A DNA stretch of 64,000 nt from Coptis chinensis (Eukaryota; Streptophyta; Magnoliopsida; Ranunculales; Ranunculaceae), in the NCBI GenBank assembly GCA_015680905.1, contig CM027379.1:30460501-30524500 (forward strand), written 5' to 3'. Of this stretch, positions 21,618 to 63,617 are shown in pieces. The number at the start of each line of letters is the position of its first letter. Positions within the stretch are counted from its first letter, which is position 1. The notes beneath the pieces are model-generated. The model worked only from the letters and a program-made list of their open reading frames with translations, was not told the origin of the DNA and ran no database searches. A program made the translations under genes and the position numbers.

Positions 21618-21621
<4 letters not shown>
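21335..21621 (-). repeat. MULE-1 right TIR
   Basis: This is the inverted partner of 14,837-15,118. It lies upstream of the transposase start and presumably holds that gene's promoter. Confidence 0.9.

Positions 21622-21705
<84 letters not shown>
21622..21705. repeat. (TA)n microsatellite between MULE-1 and MULE-2
   Basis: An uninterrupted AT dinucleotide run of about 84 bp joins the two elements. The Ile-Tyr reading frames across it are artefacts of the repeat. It hides the target duplications of both elements. Confidence 0.97.
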
Positions 21706-21707
<2 letters not shown>

Positions 21708-22275
21708 GAGGGATACACCCACTCCCATTTCGCCCACATCCAGCCCACTCCCAATCTCTATACTCAACTCGCGAGATGATCTCAAGATCTCATGGCCGAA
21801 ATTAAAACAAAACAAAAGAACAAAATAAAAGAAAACAAAACAAAGAAAAACCCTTTGTCTCTAACAACCCCAGCAAAAATGAAAACGGAACAAACAAATA
21901 TAACCACTCGATCCAAATTGAACCAAATTATCATATTTTCATTTTTATCAACTTCTGAAATAGATACTACTTCCGACCTTCTCAAACCAAATTCTCTACT
22001 TCTCAAATAGAGTTCAAGCTGCACTGTATTGCTCTCATCAGGCTTCAGGCAAGTAAAAAAAATTTGGTTTCTACAATGTTGATATTTTTGTTGTTTTTTC
22101 TGCATTGCTCTAGTTTTTGTTGTTTTGATTATGTAAATGTATTTGATATTAGAGTAAATTCAGACCTATTCATTGATAAAGTTATTATTGTTTGGAGAGT
22201 GTTGAAATCTGGACCTGGACTGGGAGTTTATTACAGATTGAATTGGTGTTTGGATGGGAGGAAATTGTATATGAT
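21706..22275 (+). repeat. MULE-2 left TIR
   Basis: This 570-bp arm pairs with 63,054-63,617 reversed, sharing cccacatccagcccactccc, gtagagaatttggtttgaga (inverted) and ggactgggagtttattac. Identity is roughly 85-90 % by eye. The arm contains a splice-donor-like site, CAGGCAAGTAA (about 22,045), also present in the right arm. There it sits upstream of the PMD gene. Confidence 0.9.
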
Positions 22276-22468
22276 TGATTGTATTAGCATTTGATTTGGT
22301 TAAGCTATTGGAAAATATATATGTCAGAACTAAAAGTGGCATGCAGTGGCCTATCAGTGTATTGGGAGTTTATTCAAATACTCAGCTGGTGAGTTTTGTC
22401 ATTTCATAATTATAGTTCCGCTCTTTTAAAACTGTAAATACTAAATTAGTTTTGCATTTTTTTTACAG

Positions 22469-22624
22469 AGAAATGTCCTCGACGAAACTACTTTCATGCT
22501 GGAGAAAGGTCGCAAATTGGGTGGGCCTGTGATTCCTGAGGAAGCAAGGAGATCGTTCAACGAAGCGAAAAACTTGACCCGGAGCAAGTTTATTGGTGGG
22601 CGTTACCATTGTGATCGTGTCTAA
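22469..22624 (+). pseudogene. orphan copy of the last exon of a PMD gene
   Basis: After a good acceptor (TTTTTTTTACAG) a frame of 51 codons reads RNVLDETTFMLEKGRKLGG, then PVIPEEARRSFNEAKNLTRS, then KFIGGRYHCDRV and a stop. The minus-strand PMD gene at the other end of MULE-2 ends with the same exon (59,623-59,467; NVLDETTLILEQGLQLGG to KFIGGRYRRDRV). The remainder of the gene is absent here, because sequence directly upstream (22,276-22,468) passes almost at once into TIR sequence. It lies in the left arm in mirror orientation and is unlikely to be expressed as a protein. Confidence 0.8.
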
Positions 22625-23030
22625 AGTTAGAGCTTTGAAGTTGGATTAGGGTTTTATATATATATTAAGGTTTCGTTCTTATGGATTAGGATTTGGTTAT
22701 GGATTAGGGTTTGAACTTGGAATTTGAAGTTTGAAGTTGAAATTTTTATGTTTGAAGCTATTTTATATGAATTTTGAATTTGAAGTTATGTATATGAGTT
22801 TGAATATGAATTTGAACGTGAGTTTGAGTTTGAGTTTGAATTTGAATATGGATTGATGTATATGAATATGAGTTAAGTTTGAGTTTGAATTTGAATATGG
22901 ATTGATGTATATGAATATGAATTTGAACGTGAATTTGAATATGGTTTGATGTATATGAATATGAATTTGAAGTTCTGTATATGAAGTGAGTTATGTGAAT
23001 TTGATCCGGTGTTTGGATATGAAATGCAGG
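22625..23030 (+). repeat. AT-rich minisatellite-like tract (gaatttgaatatg units)
   Basis: The tract repeats short units such as gaatttgaatatggattgat and gtatatgaatatgaatttga, with two tandem units of about 60 bp at about 22,825-22,950. Similar tracts occur at 57,590-57,760, 58,620-58,890 and, inverted, at 59,150-59,460. There is no coding potential. Confidence 0.75.
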
Positions 23031-23290
23031 AAAAAAAAATTGCAAGTTTTCAGGCCAAACGACCCAGTCAGGTCGCATAGAAGTGCTCAAAATGATCTGA
23101 GTAAATTGTTGCCCGAGAGATTTGCCCTTGACGACCCATGCAGACCGGTTGGCTTTTGACCTAAACGACACCATCTGATCGTGTAGGTATGCAGCCAAGC
23201 GACCCAGCCATGCCGTCCAAGAATTCCTTGCTCGAGAGATTTGCCCTTGATGACCCATGCAGACCTCTTAAAACAAAACAAAGCAAAGAA
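23031..23290. repeat. degenerate copy of the ccaaacgacc/ggtcg repeat
   Basis: The segment contains two ccaaacgaccc-type motifs with a duplicated block (gagagatttgcccttgacg at about 23,116 and gagagatttgcccttgatg at about 23,234). It resembles the MITE-like units at 57,767 and 58,898 but is more scrambled. Confidence 0.6.
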
Positions 23291-23551
23291 ATAAGGGGAG
23301 AAATAAAACAAGGGGAAACAAAACAAAACAAAAGAACTAAAACAAAACAGAAGAAACCTTTTGCTAGTTTGAACTGAACTAAAAACGAGCGCCAAACCAT
23401 ATTGTATTCATCTAAAACCCTTAACTAAAAACTAAGAATAAACTCTCTCCACTAAACCAGCAAACCAATTCTTACTAATTCTCTTCTCCAATAAACCTTT
23501 AAACTCTATCCAGTTTCACTATGTCCAGTTTCCTGCCAACCAAAAAGAGAA

Positions 23552-23582
23552 ATGGAATCGATGCCAACATTGAATGATTCAG
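23552..23582 (+). pseudogene. MULE-2 transposase exon 1
   Basis: ATG at 23,552 opens a 31-nt exon (MESMPTLNDS plus one base) ending in a strong donor, CAG|GTGAGC, at 23,583. The first residues resemble the MULE-1 start (MESMG). Phase and text fit an acceptor TTTTCTGTAG at 55,051, about 31.5 kb downstream, where the frame continues ESIDNVFLYTGVYEKNENEA. A second possible acceptor lies at 54,972 (TTGGCAG). This interpretation is inferred from phase, motif quality and similarity. Confidence 0.65.
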
Positions 23583-23717
23583 GTGAGCAAACATTGATTT
23601 TTGCATACTTATATGGGGTATTGAACTGATAGGGTTGTTTGCACCCTATTTATATTGCCAAGTTATATTTCGAAATTAGTTGATGTTGATTTTGAACTTG
23701 TTTTGATGTTGGGGGTT

Positions 23718-23990
23718 TTCTATTAAAAAAATAGATTTTTTATCTCGGTTTCAAATTTTGCGTTATCTCAGTTGTACTAAAAACTGAGGTAATAAGTTCC
23801 ATAAATCAATTTTTAGCTTTGAACAAATATATATTGCCTCGATTTTTATTGGCCAAGATTAAAAAACATAGATTTTACCGCACTCGTATATAACCATTGT
23901 AATTGTTGATTTAATTATCTCACTTCATCTGAGATAATTCGGGTTTCCATTAAATCTTGGACCTGATAATCGATATCTCGGTGAAAAAAA
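23718..23990 (+). repeat. CACTA left subterminal repeat region
   Basis: Variants of ttatctcgg occur at about 23,739, 23,763, 23,791 (inverted gaggtaat), 23,918, 23,931 (inverted gagataatt) and 23,970. In related elements such repeats bind transposase. The rest of the left arm (23,991-24,329) has a short plus-strand reading frame (24,045-24,242) that I do not recognise. Confidence 0.65.
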
Positions 23991-24329
23991 TAGAAAAAAA
24001 AACAGAAAAGAAAGAAGGCACGATCTCTGATTCTCTTCGAATTCTTGCACTCACTCCACGACCTGCACGAAAGACCATTATGCAAACTTCCTGAAGAACA
24101 GAATTTCGTTCACACTCATATTCTTCAAAGAATTTCGTTCACTATTGCGCTGCTCTTCTACCCTGGTTACTTCATTTTCTTCTTAGCCCTTCCAACTATT
24201 TTCCTTAGGGTTTCGGTAAATTTCTTCTATTGTTATGCTTAGTGTTTGAGAGGTAACATTCTATCAAATTCAGTTCTTTAATTGTTTCGTTGGGTTCATA
24301 AATTATTATTTGGTTTTTTAATTGGTTCA

Positions 24330-26288
24330 TGTAGATGTGTGGTTTTCTACCTACGACCTGATGTTAAGTGATAAAAGTGAAATTGATAGTCTTACCTACG
24401 AAATAAAGCGATGAAACTCTAAACGTAAGTAAAACTAAAATTAGATTATGCGTGTCTATTTTATCAAAGTTTCAACTCTCAATTCTATCGAAATAGAGTG
24501 GAGTAACAAATTCGTTCCTCTCCTAGTGCTCTAGCATGGATGTTTTCTAATCTAATTAGTCGGTCTTAAGTCTATGAGAGCTTTACGAAGGTGATATACT
24601 ACGATACTTACTAAAAAGAGTCTACGTTGAATTTAACTACGAATACTATGGAAATACGATTGTTTGAATCTAGATAAAGAAATTAGAGGGGAATTGAATC
24701 CACCTCGAATCCAACTTAACAACCTAGCGAAGAATGTTGTATCTCAATTCTCACGTTCTTACGGCGAGAATTTCGAGTTCTAATCCCTAGTGTTCGTGGC
24801 ATTTCTACTGAATACTAACTAGCATGTGAGGTCGTCCACCCATTCTCATGGCGAAACACGACCTTCTAGAGTGGAATAGATTCTACAACCAATTCTATAC
24901 TACCCACTAAGTTTTCATCAAGGCTTCATCAACCCCTCTAATGGAGGTTTTAGCCTTGAGTCATCAAACTAACATTTCCCATTGAATCTAAACTAAACAT
25001 AATTTAAGAAATTGAAATTTACTTACTTAAACAATAATGATTAAAATCTAATTAACAACTAAGAAATGGTAACCAACAATAATTAAAATAGATCTAATAG
25101 ATTGAAATACACAATTCGAAATTGATAAAATAACTATTTTATTTATCTAAATCAATCAAGAACAATGATTCAAATATTTAATCTAAACAAGAATTGAAAA
25201 TGGAACTAAACTTAATTTAATTAATAAAACTAGATCTAGAATTCTATATATTAATTTAGGTCTAACTAGCTAGATTTAACAAAGAGCTAAGCTTTGGTTT
25301 TTATATGTTTAGATCCAAAAATCGTGCATGGGCTTGGAGCCATGTTTTGGGCCAGAGAATCAGGCCCAAAACCCAATTCTTTCAGTCCAAAAAGGCCTCT
25401 TCAGCTGCAGTTGACTTTTATAGACTTTTCGTCTACTTCTACTCCTCTGATGGGGTCAAGACTTAGACCATTGGAAAGCTCTTTCCAAGCCGGTCGTTTT
25501 GACATAAGGTAGGCCCCATTCCGAGGTCTGAGTCCAAAGATACGGCCTTTGGAAGTTCTCACGACTTTGAGTCTTTGTTTTACGCCCACGTTGACTTTGA
25601 CTTTTCAGCTTTGACCGGGCTTTAGAAAGGCTTTGTCTTCTTGAATCTTGGCCTTTAATCATAGAACTCCTTAGCAACCAACCATTGCTCCTTTATCTCG
25701 ATAAAGTGGCACATTTCTGCACATAATGGACTTTGCAACGAAATGCATAAAACACGTAATGTCGATGCTAACTCTTAATTATTACTCACATAATTGGTCT
25801 AAAAGTATGTCTGTTACAGGGTTAAAACTACAGTTTTGGGCTCTTATCATTAAGGTTGATAAGGAATGGCTGCACTCTTTGCTTGGGATAAAAGTTGCCT
25901 ATGTATCAAGTTTCTTGGGTGAATTTGAACCAAACCTTACGTAGTTCATCTATCTCTATTTATAGGTGTTTGATATGACTATCCTTATTTGTTTCAGGCC
26001 GTTGTCAAGTGTAGATCCATATTTTATGCTCTCTTGATGATTTGTCATTAATCCTACTGTTACAAAGTAAATATCTCTTTTATTGGTGCATTGAATGAGC
26101 TTCAGGATTGCAGTAGATCATTTGTTTCCATGTATGGCTGTATTTGATATTTGGGACGATCTGAGTTTGGGTCGTGGTTACGTCATAGTGGCGTAGTTTG
26201 ACCTAGGGATATACGAGCTGTGAAGATACGACTTGGTGTGTGTACACGTGTGATGTAGTGATATGTTTGAGAATGGAGGGTACTTATA
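24330..26288 (-). repeat. gypsy B 3' LTR, split by a solo LTR
   Basis: The pieces 24,330-24,368 and 25,850-26,288 match the 5' LTR at 50,419-50,924. A polypurine stretch AAAGGAGGCTA (minus strand) lies just inside at 26,289-26,300. Confidence 0.9.
24369..25849. repeat. solo LTR of an unassigned LTR element
   Basis: This 1,481-bp block begins TGATAA and ends TTATCA. It is flanked by a perfect 5-bp duplication, ttaag (24,364-24,368 and 25,850-25,854). It interrupts the gypsy B LTR exactly where the other LTR is continuous. TG...CA ends, a 5-bp duplication and no coding suggest a solo LTR. No second copy is in the window, so family and strand are open. It must be younger than gypsy B. Confidence 0.85.
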
Positions 26289-26544
26289 TAGCCTCCTTTA
26301 TTTATTATTTTTTTATTTTTTTGGACAGCTGTGGTGTGAAAGAAAAGATAAAAGAAAGCTCTTTACACATGTCATACAGCTGGTATGTTTGAACAATTTT
26401 GGAAAATGTGCGGGAACTATTTGGATTTGATCTATGGGCCCAACTCACGTTGGATTTGTGGGCGAGGTAAGTTGGTTATGATTGTGTTTTGTGAGGAATG
26501 CAAAACGTTTTGGCTCTTTTCGAGATTTGTGCTGCTAAAGGGTT

Positions 26545-28910
26545 TTGTGTCTGAAGATCTTTCATCTCCTCATTTTATCAAAACAAAAGAAGAAGAAAAA
26601 GAAAAGCAAAAACTTTCCAACTTTTTGTCTCCAGGTGCGTTTCTCTTTGATACACAAAGTTAGATCTTTTTGTTTCCTTTTTGCTTTTGTCATGTCGATT
26701 ACTAGTGGTAGTTTGAGTGGGGAAGTTGCATTGAATAAGTGGAGGGAGACAACTGTGAGTGATAGAGATGGTGGTGTTAGGATGTGTAGTAGAGATGAAG
26801 CGTCATCGTCTTCATCATTGGAGACGATGGTTGAGGAGGCGGTACCTAGGTCGGTAGATTGTACTATTGATTTGAGGGAGGTGTTTGGTTGGGTGGACTC
26901 CAATCTGACTATATACGACCTGAGTGGAGAGAGGAATGTGTTTGGCTTAGATTATGTTCCTCAAGATGGGGGTTTTATGGTTTGTTATGGACAATTGAAG
27001 GCTGGGATGAGGTTGCCGTTCTCACGTCTTAGTGTGGAGGTTTTGAACTTTTATGGGAAAGCCCTTTATCAGTTCGTGGGGAATAGTTGGAGAGTTTTTC
27101 ATGTGCTGGATTTTTTGAATATTAGGGGTTATAACATCTGTTTATCGGATGTGCTTGAGCATTTTTCTGTGAAGCGGTTGTCTGCTATGAATTTTAGTTT
27201 GCAGGTGGTGAAGGGTAAACTTGCTGTGATTGTGGGTGTGAGTAAGGAGGATTAGGGGCGTTGGCCTTTACTGGTTGTAGGTAATTATTGTCCTTCTCAT
27301 TAGGAGTTGGTGAATCGTACTATAAAATGGGATGATAGGTCATTATGTTATAGGTCGTGGTGTATGTAGGGTAGTTGATAATTAGAATGTTCTGACAACT
27401 TTATTTTGTTTTGCAGAGGTTGTTATTCATGGGCGTACGAACACCAGAGATATAGAAGAGTTTGATCGTTTGAGTTGGGAGGAGAAACGATCTATCTTGG
27501 GAGAGGTTGCACATTACTTCAAGAAGCGCGGAGGGGAGAAAATCAACAAGAAGAAGGTTGAGCATAAGAAAAGGTCCCAAAGTTAGTATTTGACATCTAT
27601 GACTCTAGCTCGTATACTGAAATGGATCGAGAGGATAAAAAAAAAGGGGCCTATTTCTGGTGCTATGACGGTTGCAGGAAGCTCTAGTAGCTGTCCTGTG
27701 TCTAGACGACCTGCGTAGGTGGGTGAGAGTGATATGGGAGGTCATGGAGGTGGGAGTGTTGGGGGAGGTGGTGATGCTCCCACTCCATTTCGTAGGCCTC
27801 AGTTGAAGAGGCGAGCTGAGGGTGGCGAGCCTGAGGTAGTTAAGAGGACGCGCCCTGAGTCTGAGGAACTACCTGTTATGGTGGAAGGTTGTTCTTCTTC
27901 AAGTCGAGTTCCTATGAAAAGGATGAACCTGAAGGAGCTGGCCGTTGATGTTGGTGTGGCTGATGCTAGGGGCAAGAAGAAGGCTAGTGACACTGAGCCA
28001 ACTGCCCAAAAATGCAAAGGATCTGGAAGTGGTTTCCAAGGTGGTAAGGCTGGCAAATCTGACATTCTGGATAGGACAGTCACCTATTACGACCCAGTGA
28101 GTGGGCTGACGCGGCTGGTGAAGAATAGAGACTGTAGTTTCAAGTCCTCACTAGTTGCGAATGGACTGCTGGGAAGAAGTCCTTGATGGGGATAGGAGAG
28201 CCCTAGAGACTGGGAAGGATCTAGAGGCGAATCTGAAAGACATGGATCGTTCGATCTATTTTGTAAGTATGCTTCCAATTTGAGTTTTGTTTTGTGCTTT
28301 GAGTTATTGCTTTTTGACTTATTTTATTGGTTTGTCAGGTTCTGGATATGTATAGAAAGTTGAGAGAGATGGCGGCTATTTCTGATTTGTACAAGAAGGA
28401 GTTGGAGATTGCCAAGGAGGTTTATGATAAACTGGTGGCTGTGCAAGAGGTTAAACGAGCTGAAGTTGTGGGGCTGAGGGCTCAGGTTGGAGATTTGGCT
28501 GGGAGGTGGCTTTATTGCAGCCATCTCTTGACTCTTCAATAGTGGAGGTAGCGCATTGGATTGCTTAGAGCAAACAATCGCAGGTCGTTGCTGAACGAGC
28601 CCAGAAGGAGTAGAACTACCTGGTTGATTTGGTGGAGAGTGACGATGTCTATGTTCTAGTGGATGATTATATGGAACTAGAATGTAAGTACAAAACCCTG
28701 AAAAGGTCTGTTGAAAGTGGGGCTGCAACAGTAACTGTAAAAAGTACTGTTGTAGATGTTAGTAGACGATCTGATCTATCAACCGACTTGAGTGTTGCAC
28801 CAGTGCCAAACCAACTGAGGATGCTGCCACTAAAGTGCCTAATGCAAGTGGTGATCTGGCTAGTGGCTTTGTTAGTGAAGAGGGCTGCAATCTGGACCCC
28901 TTGAATATGG
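26545..28910 (+). pseudogene. antisense reading frame in the gypsy B 3' region, Transposase_28-like
   Basis: On the strand opposite gag-pol, 26,692-27,255 encodes a Ser/Glu-rich start and then GFMVCYGQLKAGMRLPFSRL, SVEVLNFYGKALYQF and NSWRVFHVLDFLN. This matches the pattern of the family annotated as putative gypsy-type transposon proteins (Transposase_28). A basic Ser/Gly-rich block (27,719-28,186) and a coiled-coil-like block (28,327-28,540, MYRKLREMAAISDLYKKELE) follow on the same strand. GT-AG-like boundaries lie between the blocks, for example GTAAGTATG at about 28,264 and TTTGTCAG ending at about 28,339. Extra antisense frames downstream of pol are known in Tat-lineage elements. Their function is unknown. 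This copy appears interrupted. Confidence 0.7.
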
Positions 28911-36600: not shown

Positions 36601-36671
36601 TTTTGTCAAACACCTTCCGACCAAGATTTGCATAACAACCTAGGTTAATCTAACATGGCTCTGATACGACT

Positions 36672-37323
36672 TGTTGGGGTTAATACCAATACCAATCGAT
36701 CCCCATTACACAGATAACTTGTATTTGAACTCACTTCAACTCCAGACAAATTCTAAATATCAACTACAACCTAGCTAACATGCCTAACTCTTTAAACAAC
36801 TATTAACAACAGATAATAATGTAAGGAGAAGAACAAGCATACCACAACACAAAGATATACCTTGATTTAGCCAATAGTGCCTACTTCCACAAGAGCTAAT
36901 CCTTTTATAAAGTGGGAATGAAGATTACAATCACTCCTTTCAGTCTCTCACCTTACTAGATCACTCCTCTCTCTTTACAAGCTCGTTTCTCTGTAAAGGT
37001 TATCTCCCAATCTTGATTGCTTTCAAGATTGGGTTTTTTCTCTGTTGTGTTGTCTTGGTTCGTGTGTTAGGTTTTTCCAAACCCCAATATATATTGCAAA
37101 CTCACGGTTTCACAAAAATAGAATTCTGTCGAAAATAGGCATGGGCGCGGGTGCGCTCTCGGCAAGGCCAATGTCGAGCGCACGCGCCCTCAAAGTACTG
37201 TAAGTTGTCCACGTCATAGGTGCGGGTGCGCCTTGAGCAAGACTAATATAAGCGCATGCGCGCTCAAGCTTCTCCACGCAAATTGAACTCCTTTTTCTCC
37301 TCATGTGAGGGATAACTCCAACA
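36672..37323 (-). repeat. copia-3 right (5') LTR
   Basis: This 652-bp LTR contains a GC-rich block (37,140-37,275, cgcgggtgcgctc, gagcgcacgcgcc) that stands out against the AT-rich surroundings. Confidence 0.88.
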
Positions 37324-42960: not shown

Positions 42961-43222
42961 TCTGAACCAATCCAATTCTTGATCTTTTGATCTTACAATA
43001 GATTACATCAATGAAAAAAAACAACAACATGATACATACTGTGATTTAAATTACATCCATCAATAATAAAAAACTGTAAAACCGATCAATTTTTCATAAA
43101 ATCAAAATCAATCCATTTCTTTCCAGAAATCATTCTGACCATAACAATTGGTCTAGATGCCTGCAAAACCAAGTTAGAATAGTTCTACATCTACCAACAA
43201 ATCTACATGCTATGATACCAAT

Positions 43223-44454
43223 TGTAAGAACCGTTATTTCAGAATGTAAATTTCTATAAACCGCGAACACCCACACGCAGCGGAATTAATGGGTTTTCAC
43301 GATTTTGATTGGAAAACATACATGTAAATCGGCTAAGATAACTCTGAGAATATAAGATATATGAATCAACAACCTCTTGATCTTCTGTTGTATTCCTATC
43401 CTTAGATTGGACGTTGTGTGGGCAACGATCTACCAACAAACCCTTTCTTTCTCTCTTTCCTTGCCTTTTTTTTAAACAAATGAATAGTGAATTCGGCCAG
43501 GAGAGAAGGGTTTCTTATTTATAGGCTACAACAGGGACCATGAGGATAAATTAGGGTTGGGCCTCCTGACGGGCTTGGGCTTCTCATGTTCGCCCAGAAC
43601 ACACAGCCCAAGTCCGTAAACAAATGGCTTATTCCACTAAAAGCCATTGTTGCACTACCGCCTTCATCCCAAATTACGTGTTACGTTTATGGGCTCTATA
43701 TTATATGCTTGTTGATCTCCCCGTCTTTAAGATATCGAATGCCCGTTGATTAAGTCAAGTTACTGACAACTATATTAATCAACTTCTTATGTCCTTGAGT
43801 AGTACCACTCAACCTCATTGTCATATCGGATTAAATCCACCTGCAGAGTTTACATGACAATCCTTATGAGCTCCTCAAGGGGACATCATCAACCCGACTT
43901 CTTACGGGTCACGAATTCCTTCTATAATCAACAACACACCTTACATACAATGTCATTACCCAATCCATCGAGTTTGTTGATTCACAAATGAATCTCACTC
44001 ATTGATGATTTAAAGCAATGTACAATGCACGTAAGTGCCCATTATTATATCCGGATTAAGAAGACAAACATCTGTAATAACAGAGGTGTTTGTTCTCTTA
44101 TATAGTCAGCATAAAGATACACAACCTCACTTGGTCCTGTTCAATACACACAAAGTATACTAATGTAATCCTATAGTCAAGATAGACTAATACCAGATTA
44201 TACTACAACCATACCAATGGTCTGTCCAAATCCATTTAGGTTATGAACGTTTACTTATACTTTATAAGGTACTGATGATATGATCTTCTGTGTGTCAACA
44301 CACACCATATCATCTATAACATAAAATATTTAGACAGATGTATATAATTAATAACATATATAATATGTATAACATTTGCCCATATGATTCTCATTCAAAA
44401 TATAAAGAATTAGAGTTAATACAAAAGTAATGCTTTTAGTATATAACTCTATCA
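43223..44454 (-). repeat. copia-2 5' LTR
   Basis: This 1,232-bp LTR is adjacent to the primer-binding site and pairs with 37,773-39,008. Confidence 0.92.
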
Positions 44455-44644
44455 ACAAGGAGGCATCTTCTCCATTTTCAAGGGATGCCAATTCTCCATC
44501 TTCTCGATCATCTATCTCTATCTCCCCTCCAATCAACCAATCAAAACCTCGAACTACGTTCGACTTGATTCGAGTTCACTAAAGAACTCGATACTTAGGT
44601 AGCTTAATATAATCGAGTTCAGTCGAAGAAATACTACCTCTACA
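44455..44644 (+). repeat. gypsy C 5' LTR, second part
   Basis: It resumes with the duplicated target acaag, then gaggcatcttctcc. It ends cctctaca at 44,644, just before the primer site, and matches 47,392-47,578. Confidence 0.88.
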
Positions 44645-47174
44645 TAGGCGCCGTCTGCCGGATCATCTTCTTGAGAAAAATCATTCAAACCATTTTCTCA
44701 AACCCACGAAACTTGGTAAAACCACCATGGAAGGACAGCTCAAAGCTTTAGCCAATCAAATGAAAACTCCCCAAGATTCTTTTATGGCAAACACATCATT
44801 GAAGTTTCCATAACGCTGGTGTGGATTATCAATGGCGACAAGCGAAAATTCGGATAATCTGAGCACACTTCTATGTTGTAAGATATACTTCTTACTTACA
44901 TATCACTTGCAGTCGATCCAGTACCAACCTGAGGGCTGCAACTACCACTATGTCACACGTTCCTTTATGGCAAATCGGTGACAATACAGATCCAGGAATC
45001 CAACTTACAGGTCGCTCCTTACCAGGTCAACTAAGGTGTTGGTTCAACCAATCTCAAACAAAAATTTTAGAGCATGTTAATCTATGGACCTATATCAATG
45101 AGGAGAAGTACATACTAGCATAACTCATCATAGAGCTATATCAAAACCTCAGCCAGATCTCATGCAAAGACCTCCACCAGGTCGTCCATCAGCCTTCCAT
45201 CAACCAGGTCGACATCAGTCATGTCGTCCTTAGCCAGGTCATCCTCCGCCAGGTCGTCCATTAGATCAGCGCCTCATTAGTTCAAGTCGGACAAAAACAA
45301 AAAAAATGTGAATTTGCATGAGAAAATAGTGGATTTTGACCTCGAAAATGGCCACCACAGAGCAAAGCTCGATGGTAACAACGTGGGCGCCACCGAGATC
45401 TTTCCGAATTGGGATCACATGTGTGATTCTGACAATTATAGCTAAAATTATGGCCAAAATACCAAAACGCATCCAAACTTACTTTAATTAGCTAAAGATC
45501 ACGATTACTTGCCATCTTTGCGCTTATCCGCCAACTCATGATACTTTATTACCATCAATGTGCAATCTGACAACTCAACATCATCTGACTTAGATCCTCC
45601 TACATCATTAGCCAGGTTATCCATCAGATCAGCGCATTATCAAGTCAGGTCGCCCTCAGATCAGATCATCCTCAGATGAGCTTATCCTCAGATCAGCTCA
45701 TCATCAAGTCAGGTCATCCTCATATTAGCTCATCCTAAAGTCAGGTCGTCCTCAGATCAAGTCATCCTTAGATCAGCTCATCTTCAAGTCAGGTCATCCT
45801 CAGATAAACTCATCTTCAAGTCAGGTCGCCTTCAGATCAGCTAATCCTACGATCAGGTCATTCTCAGCTTAGGTCATCCTTAGATCAGCTCATCCTCAAG
45901 TCAGGTTGTCCTCAGATCAGGTCATCCACAGATCAGCTCATCTTCTGATCAGGTCGTCTTCAACTCAGGTCATCCTCAGATCAAGTCATCCTCAAGTCAG
46001 GTCAGAGTAGGTCTACAACCTGGAAGAAGCAACCAATATTCCAACTATCAGTTTAACTCGAACACAATCACTGTCAGTTCAGCTTGTACACAGGTTGTCA
46101 TAAGTTCAATGGAGCTTGAACGAACATCAATATTCTAGGTCGTCCCAGACTTACCGCACCTTAAAGCTCACATCGATGATATCAATAATCAATCTAAAAA
46201 GCTCGCTCGCCAAGGAGTTATACCACACACAAAAGGTTGCCAGCATATTCATCATCAATTGAAATAACAAATCAAGGGGAAACAATACTTTGTCGAATCG
46301 AGGAATCAACAATTCCAAACCGAGAAGCATCTAAGTGTTCTCGAATTAGATATAACAATTCAAAGCACGCAGTTCCCTCCTCGACAGTTCGTATATACTA
46401 CAAACCAGTGAGTCGCTCGAATTACAAAATGAAAGTTCACTCCCTTGCAGTTTATTGCAAGCCAATCAAGCTGGGGGGCTAGCCATAGCCATCTCCGAAC
46501 TAGGACAAGTTATTACCATCTAAACATGTCAATCAAGATCCAACACTGGAGCTAAACAACATTAACACCCACAAGGGGCTGATTCTACTACGAGCTGGGG
46601 ACTAGCTATAACCATCTCCAACCTGGTCGCTCAAAGCTCCAAAACTAGGCCTAGCAACATACAATCAATTCAAGACTAATAACCATAGTGACGCCCTCAA
46701 AATGTTAGCTATCAACCATAATGATGCTTCCAAAAGGCTAACTATCAACAAAAATGCCCCCAAAAGGCATACAAATCAACTTAACACCAACACCAGGGTT
46801 AAGCTTGATTGAACTATAATTACCACTCAAAGGCTAATTATCAGTTAAATCCAATCTACGTTACCCCCAAAAGGACCACAAATCGACTTAAGGCCTCTGA
46901 TAGGGTTAAGCTTGTTTCAACTGTAATTACCACTCAAAGGCTAATTATCAGTCAAATCTAATCTATGCACTACGAGCTACGATTTGCGCACTACAATATA
47001 GGACCTACCACATCAACTCACAACAAAACTCTAAGCAACAAACAACATCTAGTCTACAAACACAGAAAATTTAATTCGTAACAATCTCCATTTTTAACCA
47101 AGTAAGACACGCGGTCTCCTTTATTATCTTTCTTTACACCACTATTCTAACAGTGATATAAAGAAAAGGGGCTA
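44645..47174 (+). other. gypsy C internal region, no gag or pol
   Basis: I find no capsid, protease, RT, RNase H or integrase text on either strand. The region holds a primer site, a tract of short direct repeats (45,160-46,010), and degenerate units near the 3' end (46,690-46,960). Those units match, inverted, the gypsy B 3' region at 29,340-29,640. It is consistent with a large non-autonomous derivative that borrows proteins from relatives. Confidence 0.75.
45600..46010 (+). repeat. short tandem repeats, tcaggtcatcctcagatcag
   Basis: About twenty imperfect copies of a roughly 16-20-bp unit are present, such as aggtcatcctcagatcag, agctcatcctcaagtc and aggtcgtcctcagatca. A sparser set of related motifs runs back to 45,160. 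Confidence 0.85.
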
Positions 47175-50418: not shown

Positions 50419-50924
50419 TGTAAATGTGTGGTTTTCTACCTACGACTGTAAATGTGTGGTTTTCTACTTACGACTTGATGTTGAGGTTGATGGGGAATGA
50501 CTGTACTCTTGCTTGGGATAAGAGTTGCCTACGTATCAAGTTTCTTGGGTGAACTTGAATCAAGCCTTACGTAGTTCATCTCTATCTATTTATAGGTGTT
50601 TGATCTGACTTTTTTTATTTGCTTCAGGCCGTTGTCAAGTGTAGATCCATATTTTGTGCTCTTTTGATGATTCGTCATTACTCCTGCTGTTACAAAGTAA
50701 ATGCCTCCTTTATTGGTGTGTTGACTGAGTTTCAGGATCGCGGTAGATCATTTGTTTCCATGTATGTTTGTATTTGATATTTGGGACAACCTGAGTTTGG
50801 ATCGTGGTTACGTCCTGGTGGCATAGTACGACCTAGGGATATACGAGCTATGAAGATACGACCTGGTGTGTGGACACGTGTGCTGTACATGTAGTGATAT
50901 GCTTGAGAACGGAGGGTACTTATA
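50419..50924 (-). repeat. gypsy B 5' LTR
   Basis: This 506-bp LTR starts tgtaaatgtgtgg and ends gggtacttata. A short local duplication of its first 27 or so bases (gtaaatgtgtggttttcta) sits at the left edge. Confidence 0.9.
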
Positions 50925-54629: not shown

Positions 54630-54919
54630 ATTATGTCGGTTTCAGTAACATATCATCTCGGTTTGTTCCTTATTATCTCGGTTTTAATATTATTTTAACT
54701 TTTCAATTTTATTTTCATTTTTAAAACCGAGATAATAGAATTAGATATTATATTAGATGTTTTTTTGGAACTGAGATAATATATCTCCTTCTTATCTCTG
54801 TTGTGGGAACTCTATTATCTCGGTGGATGTTACCTCGGTTTCTTGTGTATGAAAAAAGCGAGATAAAAATGCTATTATCTCATTTTTTTAGCTGAGATGA
54901 TAACCCTTTTTTACTAGTG
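54630..54919 (-). repeat. CACTA right subterminal repeats and terminus
   Basis: About nine copies of ttatctcgg(t) or its reverse ccgagataa occur within 290 bp. The terminus ttttttactagtg closes the element at 54,919. Confidence 0.75.
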
Positions 54920-55051
54920 GTGTTGCATACTTATATGGGGACTTATATTTTCAACTTGTTTTGAATTGGCAGATGAAAATCGTCAAAGATGATTTTTTTT
55001 TTTTTGTTCCTTCTCTAGCTTTCAACTGATTATCTATTGTGTTTTCTGTAG

Positions 55052-57583
55052 AATCAATTGATAACGTCTTTCTTTATACTGGAGTATATGAGAAAAATGA
55101 AAATGAGGCCGCTTTGTCTTCTCGTCCAACTCGAGATGACATAGAAATAGTTGATAGCGAAAAGATTCTGTATTTTGGGATGAATTTTACAAGTCTGGAA
55201 GTTGCGAAATAGTTTTATATAGACTACAGAAAAGCATTTGGATTTAGTGTCGTTACTCAAAGTACCCAAAAAAGAATTCCACATTCAGACTAAGTGAGTA
55301 CTTGTCAAATAACTTGCGAGCGTTTTGGGACTTATGTAGAATGAGTAAAAAAAACATATGAGGGTTCTAAGAAAGAAGTAATAAACAAGAGGAGAAACAC
55401 GAATACGGTGAAATGCGGGTGTTTAGCAACAATGAGAGTGACAAAATAAGACAGTGGATTATGGAAAGTGGTGAAGTATGTTGGTGCGCACAATCACAAC
55501 CTTGTTAGTCCGGCGAAAATGATGTGCATACTTGTTTGTAAAAAATTGCCTGTTGCAGCTAAGATGTTGATTGACTCGTTCCGTGATGAAGGCAAACCTG
55601 TGAATAAAGTTGCTGATATACTTACGGATCACAAAATGGTTTTTTTGACAGAGATTGTTGGAACCACTTAGGTCCGTTGAAGGAGTATAAGAAACCTGTC
55701 AAAGGTGATGCTACCGTAATGCTAGATTTTTTTAAGAAGAAGAGTATATAAGATCCTAATTTCTTCTACGCAATGTAAATGGAGAGCAAAGCACGGGCAA
55801 TCAATTTTTTATGGGTAGATGGTCGTTCACGTATGCAGTTTTAGTATTTTGGTGAGGTTTTTTTCTTTGACACAACATATCACAAGAACGTATATGAAAT
55901 GCCATTTGGCCATTTGCTGGAGTAAACCACCACATGCAGTCAATCCAGTGTGGTTGTGCACTCCTATTGGATGAGACAGAAGAATCTTTTCAGTGGGTTT
56001 TTCAGACTTGGCTTGCAGCCATGGGCGGGCATGCCCCATCTTTAATCATCACAGATCAAGACCGAGCTATGACAGCGGCTGTTGCGAAAGTATTCCCAAA
56101 TACACGACATAGATTTTGCCTATGGCACATTTTGAAGAAATTTCCTGAAAAACTTCCACATGTTTATTTCAAGAGGTCATCTTTCAAAAAAGCTATCAAA
56201 ATGTGTATTCGGGAAACTTATAATCCTAGTGCTTTCGAAACAAAGTGGAAGGGATTGATGTCTACATATGAGTTGGTGGAGAATGAATGGCTCATAGGAC
56301 TATATGAGATTCGAGAAAAATGGGCACCGGTTTATCACTTTGATACTTTCTATGCTGTCACTAATACTACCAGGTGTTATGTAGGCATGAATTCTTTTTA
56401 CAAGAGTTTTTTCCATTCAACTACAACTCTTAGAGAGTTTGTGTTAAAGAATGATAGGTGTTTGAGTAGAATTGTTCAAAGAGAAAAAAGAGAGGATTAT
56501 ACTACAGAACACTCGAATTGCATCGTCGATAGTAATGCCTTTCTCTTGAAGAGTGCATCAAAAGTGTATACGAGGAATGCGTATGATAGGTTCAAAAAAG
56601 AATGTGAGAAAACTCGAGCTGAGTATGTCTTGGATGATGATGAAAAGGGTAGTGATGGCTACACGACCTACACTTACAAGTCTCGAGTGGAAGGTGATTA
56701 GCGTGAGTGGAAGGTGAAGTTCAACTCAGCCACAAAAGAAGGTAACTGTGAATGCAAAATTTTCGAGTTCCTAGGGATACCCTATGGACACCTTGTAAAG
56801 GTTTTTCAGTGTCGTGATATATATAGAGATACCCGATCACTTTATTCTAAAGAGATGGATGAAAGGGGCTAACAAATATAAAGCTGAGTATGATGGTGGA
56901 CTAATAAGTGGTCATGAGAGTTTTGGGGTACTGAGAACTACCCAACTTCAGATGGTTGCCAATCAATTAGTCTATGAAGCGGCTGAAGCAAATGAGACTT
57001 ACCAATTGATGTTGAAAAGATTACAAGCACTATCACTAGAGCTCAAGGAAATAAAGAAAACTAATGACGAGACCAACATTTCAGTTGTCGATTCATGCAC
57101 TGTCAATGAAAACTCACAACCTGCAATTGATGCCTCACAAGTTTTACTTATGAATCCCAACATCTCACAAACTAAAAGAAGGAAAAAGGAAGTGAAGGTT
57201 TACAAAAGTAGTACTAGAATAAAAGGAGGTTTGGAGAAAGACATTGCGAAAGCTAGCAAAGGGAAGACAGGCAGGAGATGTACTAGTTGTAACCAGGTTG
57301 GTGTTAATCACGACAAACGAAATTGTTCACAAAATCCAAATAGGAAGAAGGGGATAAGTAAGTAAAGTGATTTCTGTAGTTTTCATTCATTCCTAGTATA
57401 CTAAATTTTCTTGTTTGGAGTTCACTGTAAAATTGACATTTGTCATCACTTTCTTACTTGACAGTTATTGATGAGGAGATTGAGTATGTGGACGATCATA
57501 GAGATGATGACGACGACAAAGATAGAGATGGTGATGAAGACAACAAATATGGAGATGGGGACAATGTTGAATTTAAAATTTGA
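55052..57583 (+). pseudogene. MULE-2 transposase, FAR1/FHY3-like, main exons, decayed
   Basis: From an acceptor at 55,051 the frame reads ESIDNVFLYTGVYEKNENEA, then a FAR1 domain (ILYFGMNFTSLEVAK to VGAHNHNLVSPAKM). The MULE core follows (DRAMTAAVAKVFPNTRHRFC, LWHILKKFPEKLPHVYF), then a SWIM finger (CECKIFEFLGIPYGHLVKVF, one Cys of the usual set replaced), a linker (FILKRWMKGANKYKAEYDGG) and a CCHC knuckle (CTSCNQVGVNHDKRNC). A GT-AG intron (57,358-57,464) leads to a final acidic exon (57,465-57,583; DDDDDKDRDGDED) with stop TGA. Compared with MULE-1 it has about eight premature stops and at least three frame changes, between about 55,210 and 56,815. Its function would have been transposition. 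It is dead. Confidence 0.88.
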
Positions 57584-57766
57584 AGTTAGAATCATTTGTG
57601 TTTAAATTTGAAGTTATGTATATGAATTTGGAATTTGGTTATGTGCGTTTGAATATGAATATGAATTTGAATATGGTTTTATGTATATGTATATGAATAT
57701 GAATTTGAAGTTATGTATATGAACTCATGTGTATATAAATTTGGTTTAAAATGAAATAAAAAAAAT
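57584..57766. repeat. AT-rich gaatttgaagttatg tract after the transposase
   Basis: This is simple repetitive sequence of the same type as 22,625-23,030. It is probably the transposase 3' untranslated and intergenic region. Confidence 0.6.
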
Positions 57767-58027
57767 TGCTTGGATTTTGGTCCAAACGACCTACCCAGGT
57801 CGCACAAAAGCATCCAAAACGATCCTCAAATAGCGTTCACAGACGAATCTGGCCTTAACAACCTTTGTAGATTGTTGGTCTATAGACCTAAACAATCGGA
57901 TGGGGTCATTTAGAGTGATGCTGAGCGGTCTAAAGAGGTCGTTTAGAGTGATGCTGAGAGGTCTGAAGAGATCGTTTTGAACACTTCTCTGCGACCTCAC
58001 TATGTCGTTTGGACCAAAATCCAAGCA
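57767..58027. repeat. MITE-like unit with about 38-bp inverted ends, copy 1
   Basis: The ends are tgcttggattttggtccaaa and its inverted partner ttggaccaaaatccaagca. The inside repeats ggtcgttt(a/t)gagtgatgctgag twice. No clear target duplication is visible. It is an inverted copy of 58,898-59,129. Confidence 0.75.
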
Positions 58028-58897
58028 TATGCCGATATTTCAGATGTTTTAAAAAATTAAAACTGGATTTCAATTTGTATTTCTCACTTTACTACGAAAA
58101 AAAAAACCCAACTACTCAACGTCTGCTTCTTATAACTTAGAGATCTCCAAATGTGCTTTTGATGTAAATTTGTAATTAGGTATTGGGTGCTTGTACGTAT
58201 TTTGTTGGAGATCTCGAATTTTGTTGCGTAATGTTGACATCGGTAGAGTACCAAAATTAGGGTTGAATGCCCACTCTCTTTTCCCGCTTCTTTCTCTTTT
58301 CCCTCTATTTGCCTATTGCTCCAAGGTCTGCTCCAACATCTCCTTCAAACGTTTGTGCCAACATCTGCTTCAAAGTCTACTTCAACATCTGCACCAACCC
58401 AACATTTGCTTCAATGCACTATCAACGCCTGTGCCAACGTCTGACACCAGCTCATTTTTGACAAGTTGTGCGTGTAACAAATGTTGCTTGTGGTTGTTCA
58501 TAACCAAATATTACAAATCAGATTTCAATTTTGCAATCTTGATTGGTTGTTGAACCCTAAACTCAGTAACCAATAGTTGGACGGCATGACTGAAGATGTG
58601 GACGATTAGGGTTTTGTATATAGATTAGGGTTTGAAGTTGGATTAGGGTTTGGTTAGGGATTAGGGTTTGAAGTTGGAATTTGAAGTTTGAATTTAGGGC
58701 CCATTGAATTTATATGTTTGAAGTTATTTTATATGAATTTCGAATTTGAAGTTATGTATATGAATTTGAATATGAAAATGTGCGTTTGAATTTCACGTTG
58801 AATTTGAATATGAATTTGAACGTGAATTTGAATTTGAATACGGTATGATGTGTATGAATATGAATATGAATTTGAAGAAAGGGATAAAAAAATCAGT
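58028..58897. other. MULE-2 intergenic region, no recognisable gene
   Basis: The plus-strand frame at 58,191-58,553 is low-complexity, with repeated caacatctgcttcaa-type motifs, and resembles no protein I know. From 58,605 an AT-rich tract repeats gattagggtttgaagttgga, as in the left arm. Confidence 0.55.
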
Positions 58898-59129
58898 TTT
58901 GCTTAGATTTTGGTCCAAACGACCCAGTGAGGTCGCAAAGAAGTGTTCAAAACAATCTCTTCAGACCGCTCAGCATCACTCTAAATGATCTCATCAGATT
59001 GTTTAGGTATATAGACCAGCGATCTGCAGAGGTCGTTAAGGTCAGATTCATCTGTGAACGATCCAGTCAGATCGTTTTGGATGCTTTTATGAGACCTGGC
59101 TGGGTCGTCTAGACCAAAATCTAAGCAAA
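58898..59129. repeat. MITE-like unit with inverted ends, copy 2
   Basis: It starts tttgcttagattttggtcc and ends with the inverted agaccaaaatctaagcaaa. The interior aligns with the reverse complement of 57,767-58,027 at roughly 80 % by eye. Confidence 0.75.
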
Positions 59130-59466
59130 TTTTTTATTTGATTTAGTTCATTTCATATCCAAACCAAATTTTCATATACGCACATATCCAACCAAATTCA
59201 AACTCAAATTCATTTAATATCCAACCAAACCCTAATCCAACTTCAAACCAAGTTCATTTCATATCCAACAAAATTCAAACTCAAATTCAACGTGAAATTC
59301 AAACGTACATTTTCATATTCAAATTCATATACATAACTTCAAATTTGAAATTCATATACAATAACTTCAAACTTCAAATTCCAACTTCAAACCCTAATCC
59401 CTAAGCAAACTTTAATCCCTAATCCAACTTCAAACCTTAATCTATATACAAAACCCTAATCCAACT

Positions 59467-61762
59467 TCAGACACGATCACGACGGTAACGCCCACCGATA
59501 AACTTGCACCGGGTCAAGTTTTCCGCTTCGTGGAACAATCTCCTTGCTTCCTCGAGAATTGTAGGCCCACCCAATTGCAAACCTTGCTCAAGTATGAGAG
59601 TAGTTTCGTCGAGAACGTTGCTTTGTAAACAGAAATGCAAAACTAATTTTGCATTTATAGTTTTAAAAGAGCGGAACTACAATTATAAGTGCATAAAACT
59701 CACTAGATGAGTACTGAAAGTAAGAAGTATCTGTAGGGAGAAATGAATAAGAAGCTGAGGATTTATCATTTGAATGTGAGTATTCATTTCATACCATTCC
59801 ATATAGCCAAACTCATATTTCCATAGATAACTTGCTGGGGGTCCTCGATTTTGGGGTTGGATCACGTGATTCTCCCATGTGGTCCAATATGTCGAAGTAA
59901 GATTTTATTTGACCTCGTACCCATGTCCGTTGGTAGTTCTCGTTGCGATATTTGGCTATGCGTGGAGGATTGGCAGGTATAAGCTGCAGGTGACCCAACT
60001 GATGGACCGCCCTACAAACAGTATAAAGCTCCACGACACCAAGAAAGCATATAAAGCCCTCAAAATAAGCAATATCATCCACCGGGCGTAAAGCTCTAAC
60101 ATTATTGTAGGGCCACCATTCAACTTATCATATTAGAAAATCAATCAGTAATCACATACTCAAACCATCAACTAATCAATAAAATATTAAAGAAACCCAT
60201 ATACTTACCATCAAACAAGTTGTATCATCAAGAAATTTTCCATAACACTGCAATGCATGTTTTGGGTTAACATAGTGCAGAGCAGTAATTGAGTGCCTTC
60301 GAGGATGGGCCAACTCATACTCTAAGTTTGGGATTGGCCTGAAGCACGGGAAGAACTCGTAGATCCACACCTAGATTTATATACACACATAATTAAAATA
60401 CAAATAATAAATAGATAAAGGGTTAATATATAAACGAAAATACTAAATATTTACCTGTAAGAGAGTGAAATAGCTTGAAATGCATTTTACTTTGGCGCTT
60501 GTGGCAGCCCCAAGACCGTGGTGTAAGTATGCAAGTATTGCTGCACCCCACACATAGTCTTTGATCTCGCTAAACTTCAACAGCAACCTCAAGTAACAAA
60601 TAGGCACTACAGTCCCAGACTTGTCAGGGAAAAGAGTACATCCAAAGAAGAATAACAAACAACTTAACCTCTGAAGGTATGGTGTACCTCTACCAAAGTC
60701 GACGCCTTCTTCACACGCCCTTTTAGTTTAATCGCACTATCATGCACCTTCCCGGCCATGTGATGCTTCAAGAATTGTAACCTTACTTTTGATATGAAGT
60801 GGCTGGCTTGCAACTCCTCCTTAATCGCTTCTAACGATATATTAAGAGTGAGATTCAACATTTTCTCAGTCTATTCCACTTCATATCAATGTTCCCTTGC
60901 ATAGCTCTTCCTTTTATCGAGACTCCTAGAAGTTGGGAGACATCATCCAAAGTGATAGTCATCTCCCCAAACGACATATGAAATGTGTTGGTCTCCGGAT
61001 TCCACCTCTCCACAAACGCAGAGACCAACACTTAATCCTGATGCTCGTATACTCCCATCATGAGATCATACAAACCCTATCCTTCTAAGCTCGTTTTCAA
61101 ATCTAGGATAGTTTTGAAATTTTGACTTCAGATTCCATTGATTTAACTTGGTTAGGTGCTGACCACACTTCAAAACTCCACGCTCCTAAAACAATAAAGA
61201 CAACAAAGAGTCAATGAATCCATGATTTAATTTCGTAAATTGAAAAAGTTAAAGTACTAATTATTATTAATATTGCCTGCCCCTCCCAAACATCGCGAGC
61301 CACGTGCACAACATAGTCATACAACAACTGGTCTATTGAACGTCCTTGCACTCTAGTCGGCCCACCACTATATATGCCTAGTTGATACTCCTTGTCTTTC
61401 TTCAATTTTCTCATAATATTTTGAACAGGACGTACCACCGGTGCCTCCATTGTTTCCTCCACCGCTTCCTCCTCATCAATTGTCATCCTCCTCCAAATCG
61501 TCATCAGCCTCATCCAGATCGTCATCCTCCTCGTCCCCGGCTCATCGTCATCACTCTCATCTTCCCCTTCCCCTTCCTTTTCCCTTTCTCCTTCCCCTTC
61601 CTCTTCCCATTCATCATCACCATCAGCATCCTCCTCTTCACTATCACCACTATCTAAATTCGTAGGAATCCCCATTTTTACATCAACATCTTCATCCTCA
61701 TCCTCATCAATATCCTCATCTAAATCTAAATCTAAATCTACGTCCTCATTCACAATAGGAGC

Positions 61763-61793
<31 letters not shown>

Positions 61794-62004
61794 GTACTAC
61801 CTCTAAATCACCTACACCTACTATATTACTCGGATCGGTGGCTTGTCAATCCCCTCTATGGGCGGATGCCGACGTTCCCCTTCCTTTTTTTTTCTCAGGT
61901 GGGTCACCACGACCCGAACTACTACTACCACCACTAAGTAATTTCTTAGCACCTGTGTAGATGGTTTTCGCTACACTCTTCACATTCTTTGATCGAGGAC
62001 CCAT
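59467..62004 (-). pseudogene. plant mobile domain (PMD, MAIN/MAIL-like) gene of MULE-2
   Basis: The minus-strand gene starts at ATG 62,004 (MGPRSKNVKSVAKTIYTGAK). An extremely acidic stretch follows (61,753-61,500; VDLDLDLDEDIDEDEDEDVD), then QLLYDYVVHVARDVWEG. The PMD exons follow: RGVLKCGQHLTKLNQWN and VSAFVERWNPETNTFHMSFG then EMTITLDDVSQLLGVSIKGR (about 61,190-60,880), GCTLFPDKSGTVVPICYL with YVWGAAILAYLHHGLGAATS (60,658-60,455), WIYEFFPCFRPIPNLEYEL (60,370-60,176), and CRAVHQLGHLQLIPANPP (60,082-59,830). The final exon ends KFIGGRYRRDRV (59,623-59,467). The GEMTITLDDV and WGAAILAYL motifs are diagnostic of the PMD family, which occurs both as host genes and in MULEs. At least one frame change and two stops lie in the 61,110-61,030 exon. 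Cellular role in the element is unknown. The true exon edges need transcript data. Confidence 0.82.
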
Positions 62005-63053
62005 TATTGCTACAAAAAATAGTAATAAACAAGTATTAGTAACCAAAAGCTTCAATCTAATAAAATGAAAAACAAGCTTCATTGACAAAACGAAAGCGAA
62101 ACATAATCAATTAGAGAGAGTCGTACAATCTAATTTAAAAACCAAAACTACAATGCATCAATAATCTCATTTCTCTTCAAAATTGTTACAATTAATACAT
62201 TGAATATGATCCAATACAATCCATTTGCGACAACAAGAAATCTAGCAACTACTAATCTACTTAATGGATAAAAACATGCATGAATGAGTTTTCTAGTTCA
62301 ATTGATTTTTGTAAACAGTCATGTTAGGGGGCCCTTCATGTCAATGCAACAATGCATACAATGTATTGAATGTTTCTACAAGTTATTTTTTCATACCGTA
62401 TGATAGTGCATAGAAGTGAATGGTTCCGGGTTTTCTCAATATAAGGAAAAACCCGAAAGAACCGAACCTGGTAGGAACCATTCAAAATAGAACCGAACCC
62501 AAAATCGGTAAGCGTGCAAACCATAACCGACCCATGAACACCCCTACTTCTAGCCCATAAATAATACTCAATAAAGGTATTGAATTGAGGCATCCAAGAG
62601 TGGACTAAACTCTCACCCCTTTCATCTAAACCCTCCTCAAGGTAACGTGTAACCTCACACAAGCTAAGCACCATACAGCGTAGCACGTACAAAGATGGCT
62701 ATCTAGAAAAGTAAATTGCAATTCCCGAAATACAACTATCAGTGTATCTCTCTAGAAAAGTGAACAAGGTAATTGTAAATCTTAAAAAGCAGTTGTCATC
62801 TTCGGAAAATGACAATAATTCTTTCTTTGTAGGAATTCAACAGTTCTTTTCTGAGTTTCCCCGTGATATGTATATTCTATTACTAATTCAACTATTAAGC
62901 AACTCAAAACCAAAAATAGGATTGATCATCTTTGGCAAAAGGAACTGGCTATATAACACAAGGAAACCTCATTTTTCATTTGCAAACTTAGTCATGACAA
63001 TGAAATACAACCACCAACGAAAATCAGGTCATGACAATGCACCCACAGAACTA
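62005..63053. other. MULE-2 upstream region of the PMD gene
   Basis: I see no gene. The short frames at 62,336-62,692 (minus) and 62,742-63,053 (plus) have no recognisable motif. It is probably the promoter, 5' untranslated exon and intron of the PMD gene. Confidence 0.5.
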
Positions 63054-63617
63054 AATCATATGCAATTTCCTCCCATCCAAACACCAATTCAATTTGTAAT
63101 AAACTCCCAGTCCAAATTCAGATTTCAACACTCTCTAAATAATAATAGCTTTATCAATGAATGGGTCTGAATTTACTCTAATATCTAATACATTTACATA
63201 ATCAAAACAACAAACTAGAGCAATGCAGATAAAACAACAAAAATGTCAACATTGCAGAAATCAAATTTTTTTTACTTGCCTGAAGCCTGAAGACAGCAAT
63301 GCAATGCAACTTGAACTCTATTTGAGAAGTAGAGAATTTGGTTTGAGAAGGTCGAAAGTAGTATCTATTTCAAAAGTTGATCAAATGAAAATATGATAAT
63401 TTGGTTCGATTTGGAGTGGTTATATTTGTTTGTTCCGTTTTCGTTTTTGCTGGGGTTGCTAGAAACGAAAGGTTTTTTTTGTTCTGTTCTATTTTATTTC
63501 GTTATTTTCTTTTGTTTTAATTTCGACCAAGAGATCTTTAGATCATCTCACGAGTTGAATGGATGAGATTGGGAGTGGGCTGGATGTGGACGAAATGGGA
63601 GTGGATGTTCCTCCCCC
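63054..63617 (-). repeat. MULE-2 right TIR
   Basis: This is the inverted partner of 21,706-22,275. The outermost 60 bp are the best conserved, matching cccacatccagcccactccc in reverse. Confidence 0.9.

Follow-up and report, generated by a model that had tools for sequence, protein, structure and literature searches.

A stretch of 64,000 nucleotides from Coptis chinensis (assembly GCA_015680905.1, contig CM027379.1, positions 30,460,501 to 30,524,500; hereafter the window, with positions counted from its first letter) holds between 21,706 and 63,617 a decayed copy of a two-gene family of Mutator-like elements (MULEs). One gene encodes a FAR1-type transposase. The other, reading towards it, encodes a plant mobile domain (PMD) protein. 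Because many copies in the genome contain the same two facing genes, we conclude that this is a real two-gene transposon family.

Ends and genes of the window element

The element is bounded by terminal inverted repeats (TIRs) and has the following parts.

21,622-21,705: (AT)42 microsatellite directly outside the left TIR
21,706-22,276, plus strand: left TIR, 571 bp, terminus GGGAGGGATACACCCACTCCC
22,277-22,471, plus strand: rearranged junction of TIR-side spacer, short inverted piece and last PMD intron
22,379-22,937, plus strand: copy (78%) of 59,713-59,193 in inverted orientation; it includes the last PMD exon at 22,472-22,621
55,048-57,583, plus strand: FAR1/MULE/SWIM/CCHC-type transposase gene with stops and frameshifts, exon limits by eye; FAR1 region about 55,048-55,623, MULE domain in 55,898-56,698, C-terminal part 56,799-57,362
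about 57,464-57,583, plus strand: acidic last exon of the transposase, acidic run DDHRDDDDDKDRDGDED
59,470-62,004, minus strand: broken PMD gene, exons by eye; acidic N-terminal exon about 62,004-61,280, PMD core 61,185-60,446, further exon about 60,370-60,215, 3' exons 60,124-59,816 and, last, 59,619-59,470
63,054-63,617, minus strand: right TIR, with a (TA)n/(CA)n run on its outer flank

An earlier sequence-only reading had placed TIRs at 21,706 and 63,617. These are real: in a pairwise alignment they are inverted and 90.6% identical over 573 columns (E = 0), and in the alignment of the family TIRs they are 91.7% identical. At the left end, the TIR is followed by an inverted copy of the PMD end.

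The same reading had proposed a plus-strand transposase with FAR1, MULE, SWIM and CCHC parts, which was confirmed from several copies together. In the window, the MULE domain PF10551 was found at 55,898-56,698 (Pfam E 6.3e-25). The region 55,048-55,623 aligned at 33% with the FAR1-bearing part of L031, an intact transposase of the same genome, and the FAR1 domain PF03101 itself was significant in the sister copies at C7:22.02 Mb (read with X, E 6.6e-15) and L020 (4.8e-8). The SWIM domain reached 19.4 bits in a sister copy against a cut-off of 19.6 and was significant in L031 (3.9e-7). The CCHC knuckle was read by eye and had no Pfam match. Among PDB structures, no meaningful relative of the L031 transposase was found.

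On the minus strand, a piece of 94 residues (60,446-60,727) matched the PMD family PF10536 with an E of 2.4e-13 and 50.4 bits, the gathering cut-off being 34.9, in keeping with the multi-exon PMD gene that had been claimed. Elsewhere in the genome, the intact PMD core L013 scored 140.6 bits against the same cut-off, and a clean PMD copy 2 kb inside a family TIR at C2:10,043,800 gave 9e-41. The PDB held no relative of the PMD (best E 0.97). Long acidic stretches had been noticed in both proteins and are present in both, in the N-terminal exon of the PMD gene, where aspartate and glutamate make up as much as 60% across 60 residues, and in the C-terminal exon of the transposase.

Since both genes contain stops and frameshifts, the window copy is dead. 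A Pack-MULE, that is, an element with captured fragments and no transposase, is ruled out by the transposase and the multi-exon PMD gene. The span of 42 kb includes a nested block resembling long terminal repeat (LTR) retrotransposons at 25,850-50,924, so that the MULE proper comprises about 17 kb, a size resembling that of complete copies elsewhere (17.7 and 19.8 kb). The flanks of the family are largely TA repeats, and a target site duplication of 8-11 bp is therefore indistinguishable from them.

The gene pair and its TIRs in the genome

The left TIR was searched against the host genome (935.6 Mb, 116 contigs). With the best 40 of 192 candidates scored, which makes the count a lower bound, at least 51 matches were obtained and merged by hand to 41 places, two of which are perhaps one interrupted TIR. 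Among these places are five pairs of facing TIRs at most 70 kb apart:

the window element
C2:81.69-81.71 Mb, 19.8 kb
C7:22.02-22.04 Mb, 17.7 kb
C6:23.79-23.83 Mb, 36 kb
C4:28.45-28.51 Mb, 62 kb

Every one of these pairs encloses a family transposase and a family PMD, convergent to each other.

The PMD genes were then collected with the clean core of L013 (245 amino acids) as the query. With the best 150 of 3,308 candidates scored, 151 matches were found and 150 listed. Divided at 71% identity, they form a set of 57 close PMDs (56 and that of the window, added by hand) and a set of 94 distant PMDs at 56-67%. Full-length, stop-free cores occur in 9 of the 57. For the transposase, 41 of 145 listed rows were counted as close (74% or more), two of the 41 being pieces of one place. 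Among the matches listed, a close transposase lies no more than 70 kb from 22 of the 57 close PMDs, and all 22 pairs are convergent. In 1000 draws of random placement, with the length of chromosome C9 guessed, the count averaged 0.33 and never exceeded 2. Counted from the transposase side, again among the matches listed, 23 of the 41 close rows are accompanied by a close PMD within 70 kb, every one convergent. A separate search of the whole genome with PF10536 yielded 3,773 first-look candidates and at least 139 matches among the best 117 scored, which indicates a very large family.

In maize MuDR, the genes mudrA and mudrB have opposite orientations and read inward from the TIRs. The family described here likewise has two inward-reading genes of opposite orientation, as the 22 convergent pairs show, and the sequence-only reading was right to see a MuDR-like layout with the PMD as the second gene. 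It differs from MuDR in that the second gene is a PMD gene (identified by its PF10536 match) and the transposase is of the FAR1 type.

The position of the PMD gene relative to the TIRs was consistent with this layout. In 14 of the 57 close PMDs, a family TIR is found within 10 kb behind the 5' end, and in 5 more a TIR piece lies within 10 kb in another orientation. None of the 94 distant PMDs has a family TIR within 10 kb. The idea that the PMD gene lies between TIRs of its own was rejected, as no separate PMD TIRs were seen and the TIR adjoining the PMD is that of the element. At C7:91,618,797, C3:15,783,958 and C3:96,057,812, outer TIR halves (query 1-225 or 1-204) stand near PMD genes and face wrongly; these may be ends that were rearranged or joined head to head.

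Of the 41 places, 24 TIR ends were examined for their surroundings. A pure TA run of at least 10 bp was present within 45 bp outside 13 of them, compared with 0.4% of random 45-mers. The family inserts by preference in TA microsatellites. Eight of the 24 ends, including the left end in the window, share the rearranged junction over at least 150 bp, and most of the eight continue into the last PMD exon. We interpret such a junction end as a duplicate of the PMD-bearing one with most of the PMD gene lost. The locus L011, where a PMD gene follows the junction further inward on the same side, fits this reading poorly. It is also an exception to the rule that the junction end precedes the transposase and the PMD occupies the opposite end, which was accordingly dropped. 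The TIRs of both end types intermix in the TIR tree and are therefore either kept alike or too close to resolve; separate histories for PMD-side and transposase-side TIRs were not seen there.

The two TIRs of the window could also stem from different copies. A third family TIR (L009, C3:30,443,331) lies 39 kb to the left of the left TIR, has the same direction and the same rearranged junction, and is slightly nearer to the right TIR than the left one is (93.1 versus 91.7%), which might make it the true partner. However, a TIR on another chromosome is nearer still (93.9%, 444 columns), and hence identity is no guide to the pairing. In addition, the complete copies of 17.7 and 19.8 kb have the layout of the window, and the left window end is a standard end type of the family. 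We regard the different pairing as unlikely, and the two TIRs in the window are likely the ends of one element. Under either pairing, both genes fall inside one element.

PMD genes in two MULE lineages

The neighbourhoods of three distant PMDs (L032, L033 and L058) all contained a MULE transposase of a different kind, convergent to the PMD. Its domains score weakly. It is AFT/FAR1-like in L033 and L058, where FAR1 is at or just below the cut-off, and not in the L032 piece. Its MULE domain is present in L032 and L058 and not in the tested L033 piece. An OTU-like C-terminal part was called by eye and had a weak otubain match in Pfam (E 0.055). With a query of 149 amino acids from this transposase, the genome gave 1,456 first-look candidates and at least 150 matches. 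Among the matches listed, the two PMD sets keep to different transposases: 24 of the 94 distant PMDs have the second-lineage transposase within 25 kb, convergent in 24 of 24 (random placement, mean 0.76 and maximum 4), and none of the 57 close PMDs has it. The sequence-only reading had suspected a distinct lineage, and the family does form one of its own, its PMDs keeping to one transposase clade and forming one clade themselves (see below).

The transposases of the family and of the second lineage were 28-31% identical over 55-74 amino acids in L032 and gave no match in L033. The family TIR found short weak matches in the second lineage (best E 7e-4 inside L032 and 0.005 upstream of the PMDs), which were set aside as AT-rich chance; the upstream stretches were 1.6 kb each, perhaps short of the TIR. 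Since the PMDs are 56-67% identical across the two lineages while the transposases barely align, the PMD looks portable.

Selection was analysed by comparing 11 family PMDs with L032 and L033. The 22 comparisons gave a dN/dS of 0.25-0.38 at a dS of 0.79-1.15, the frameshift-inflated row of the window lying outside this range. The PMD has evolved under constraint between the clades. When family transposases were compared with their paralogue L031, the dN/dS was 0.13-0.15 in the 3 of 7 comparisons with a finite, near-saturated dS. If anything, the transposase seems to be the more constrained gene of the pair, and common descent of the pair therefore fails to explain the likeness of the PMDs. To judge from the sequences, it would be explained by a PMD exchanged between elements or by two captures of related host genes.

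In the PMD tree (33 rows, the window row omitted), the 13 family PMDs form one clade with support of 100/99, and both MULE PMD clades are separated from another PMD class, represented by five rows (100/100). The approximately unbiased (AU) test favoured neither order among the PMD clades (p 0.53 and 0.43) and did not settle the direction of a transfer. This unsettled order, together with a tree that contains no host PMD genes, leaves room for a reading without exchange, in which the two MULE lineages independently captured host PMD genes that were closely related. Ikeda et al. 2017 infer that PMD-C was captured by MULEs on two independent occasions (PMC5418596). However, both lineages share the gene orientation and the acidic N-terminus, and their PMDs are jointly separated from the other class. 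We take two captures as a possible but tentative explanation.

Several observations weigh against, or give no support to, a PMD that is maintained by selection together with this transposase. Within the family, the dN/dS is about 0.6 for both genes, a PMD mean that counts the frameshifted window row and a value that mostly dead copies are expected to give. The PMD and transposase trees showed no mirror topology within the family; the matrix correlation (r = -0.17, p = 0.60) came from 7 elements with star-like divergence and one badly aligned PMD stretch (C6b, distances 0.21-0.24) and is hence uninformative. The convergent pairs are one inherited ancestral arrangement, not 22 independent events. 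Further, 18 of the 41 close transposase rows had no PMD within 70 kb among the best candidates scored, and at C7:66.93 Mb the 3 kb at the likeliest PMD position beside the transposase contained none, so that the PMD may be dispensable. Neither of the two findings that would have refuted the sequence-only reading was made: the five facing pairs within 70 kb hold both genes, and no separate TIRs of the PMD gene were seen.

These 18 rows would suit a PMD that is a functionless passenger, a host or transposable element gene captured once. MULEs do capture genes, many copies are decayed, and some ends carry only remnants of the last exon. On the other hand, the PMD is a multi-exon gene whose orientation is identical in all 22 pairs, its dN/dS between the clades is low, the second lineage has the same association, and nine of the close cores have stayed full-length and stop-free. 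A passenger is in our view quite improbable.

Neighbouring elements, known systems and the possible role of the PMD

The window contains the following further features.

25,850-50,924: nested LTR retrotransposons, foreign to the MULE, about 25 kb
25,850-26,288 and 50,481-50,924: outer LTR-like pair, 88% identity
32,088-32,658 and 36,669-37,248: inner LTR-like pair, 88% identity
37,770-39,009 and 43,220-44,455: inner LTR-like pair, 93% identity
57,759-59,135: intergenic stretch separating the convergent 3' ends, containing units like miniature inverted-repeat transposable elements (MITEs) and TTTGAA-rich tandem repeats
57,759-58,027 and 58,900-59,135: two palindromic MITE-like units, TIR GCTTGGATTTTGGTCCAAACGACC

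No target duplication beside the nested LTR block was established from its flanks. The block also contains an array of 16/32/48-bp repeats at 45,613-46,004. A MITE-like unit similar to those between the genes was seen by eye downstream of the PMD in L013. An RbcS exon matched the spinach entries 1ir1 and 1aa1 of the PDB best (145 and 144 bits, against 140.3 or less for others), at most a hint of a eudicot close to Caryophyllales.

A second FAR1-type MULE is located at 14,837-21,621. It has one gene as far as seen, a transposase on the minus strand that is about 54% identical to that of the PMD-MULE family, and TIRs of about 298 bp with 92% identity and TA runs at both ends. As the (AT)42 repeat stands between this element and the PMD-MULE, the two MULEs share one microsatellite. 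Its TIR start CGGTTTGGCTAGG is similar by eye to the published mask of MuTAnT, GGGGTTTGCTAGAACA, from which the termini of the PMD-MULE family, GGGAGGGATACACCC and similar, differ by eye (PMC4486113). MuTAnT and AutoMuTAnT of Medicago likewise have TA-microsatellite flanks and a FAR1/Jittery-type transposase, and are described there with a single open reading frame (ORF), a length of 4.9 kb and a TIR other than that of the window family (PMC4486113). The neighbouring MULE looks closer to MuTAnT than the PMD-MULE does.

Table 1 of Dupeyron et al. 2019 (PMC6446971) gives a PMD, often antisense, for the plant MULE groups 42 and 45-50, so that a convergent PMD gene as such is not new. Like the window family, these groups (e.g. 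MUDR, 'PMD in antisense for most of them') have TIRs and a PMD antisense to the transposase, but they are given SWIM, CCHC or C2H2 and no FAR1, whereas the family transposase is of the FAR1 type. The plant FAR1 groups 35 and 36 stand in that table without a PMD. The Jittery group 36 of dicots and monocots shares the N-terminal FAR1 and the C-terminal SWIM or CCHC, but is listed with one ORF, no PMD and TIRs of 39-292 bp (PMC6446971); the window family has a second gene and TIRs about 570 bp long. A PMD-C fused to MULE transposases was described in grasses and Amborella by Ikeda et al. 2017, who suggested an anti-silencing use (PMC5418596). In barley, Abermu likewise has a reverse-oriented second gene, ORFR, between the transposase and the 3' TIR; it is reported without similarity to MURB, and the words 'mobile domain' are absent from that text (PMC9168764). 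Among the papers found in the open-licence literature of PMC, judged by title, none described the combination of a PMD with a FAR1-type MULE. The PMD paired with a FAR1-type MULE is probably a new variation on a known arrangement.

We favour, with reasonable though not high confidence, the following view of the family. Each TIR would carry the promoter of the gene that reads inward from it. The transposase, with its FAR1 DNA-binding domain and DDE MULE core, would bind and cut the TIRs. The PMD protein would be a selected accessory factor, its gene either exchanged between or separately captured in two or more MULE lineages of the genome whose transposases are very different. It would most likely counteract silencing by the host and so sustain expression of the element, much as VANC does in VANDAL21. 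VANDAL21/Hiun (VANA, VANB, VANC) is likewise a MULE with accessory genes, of which VANC is anti-silencing (PMC6446971, PMC8616336); for the PMD of the window family, this role is a hypothesis by analogy, and we rate its chances at slightly below even.

The PMD might instead assist integration or the assembly of a complex, as a helper of the MURB type. It is oriented like mudrB, and insertion is reported to require MURB (PMC9168764). Since MAIN and MAIL1, PMD proteins of the host, interact with one another and with PP7L (PMC7156037), a scaffold role is plausible. However, the FAR1-type neighbour at 14,837-21,621 showed no PMD match, and any listed PMD was found within 70 kb in only 2 of the 104 more distant FAR1-type transposase rows. 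The helper role appears to us somewhat unlikely, and we leave a still smaller share of the probability to roles of other kinds.

Returning to a selected accessory factor, its wider form can be offered only tentatively: the PMD may be a portable, selected accessory cassette of plant MULEs that at least two very different FAR1-type lineages of this genome have acquired, each holding PMDs of its own at the same convergent position, and probably an element-encoded antagonist of silencing by MAIN/MAIL1-PP7L. MULEs carry PMD genes although the host PMD proteins MAIN and MAIL1 silence transposable elements (PMC5418596, PMC7156037). The PMD is now joined to FAR1-type MULEs that seek TA microsatellites, a type given in the table of PMC6446971 as single-ORF elements without a PMD. 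The two lineages with a PMD are replicate systems within one genome for the question of whether the PMDs of MULEs block silencing or help transposition.

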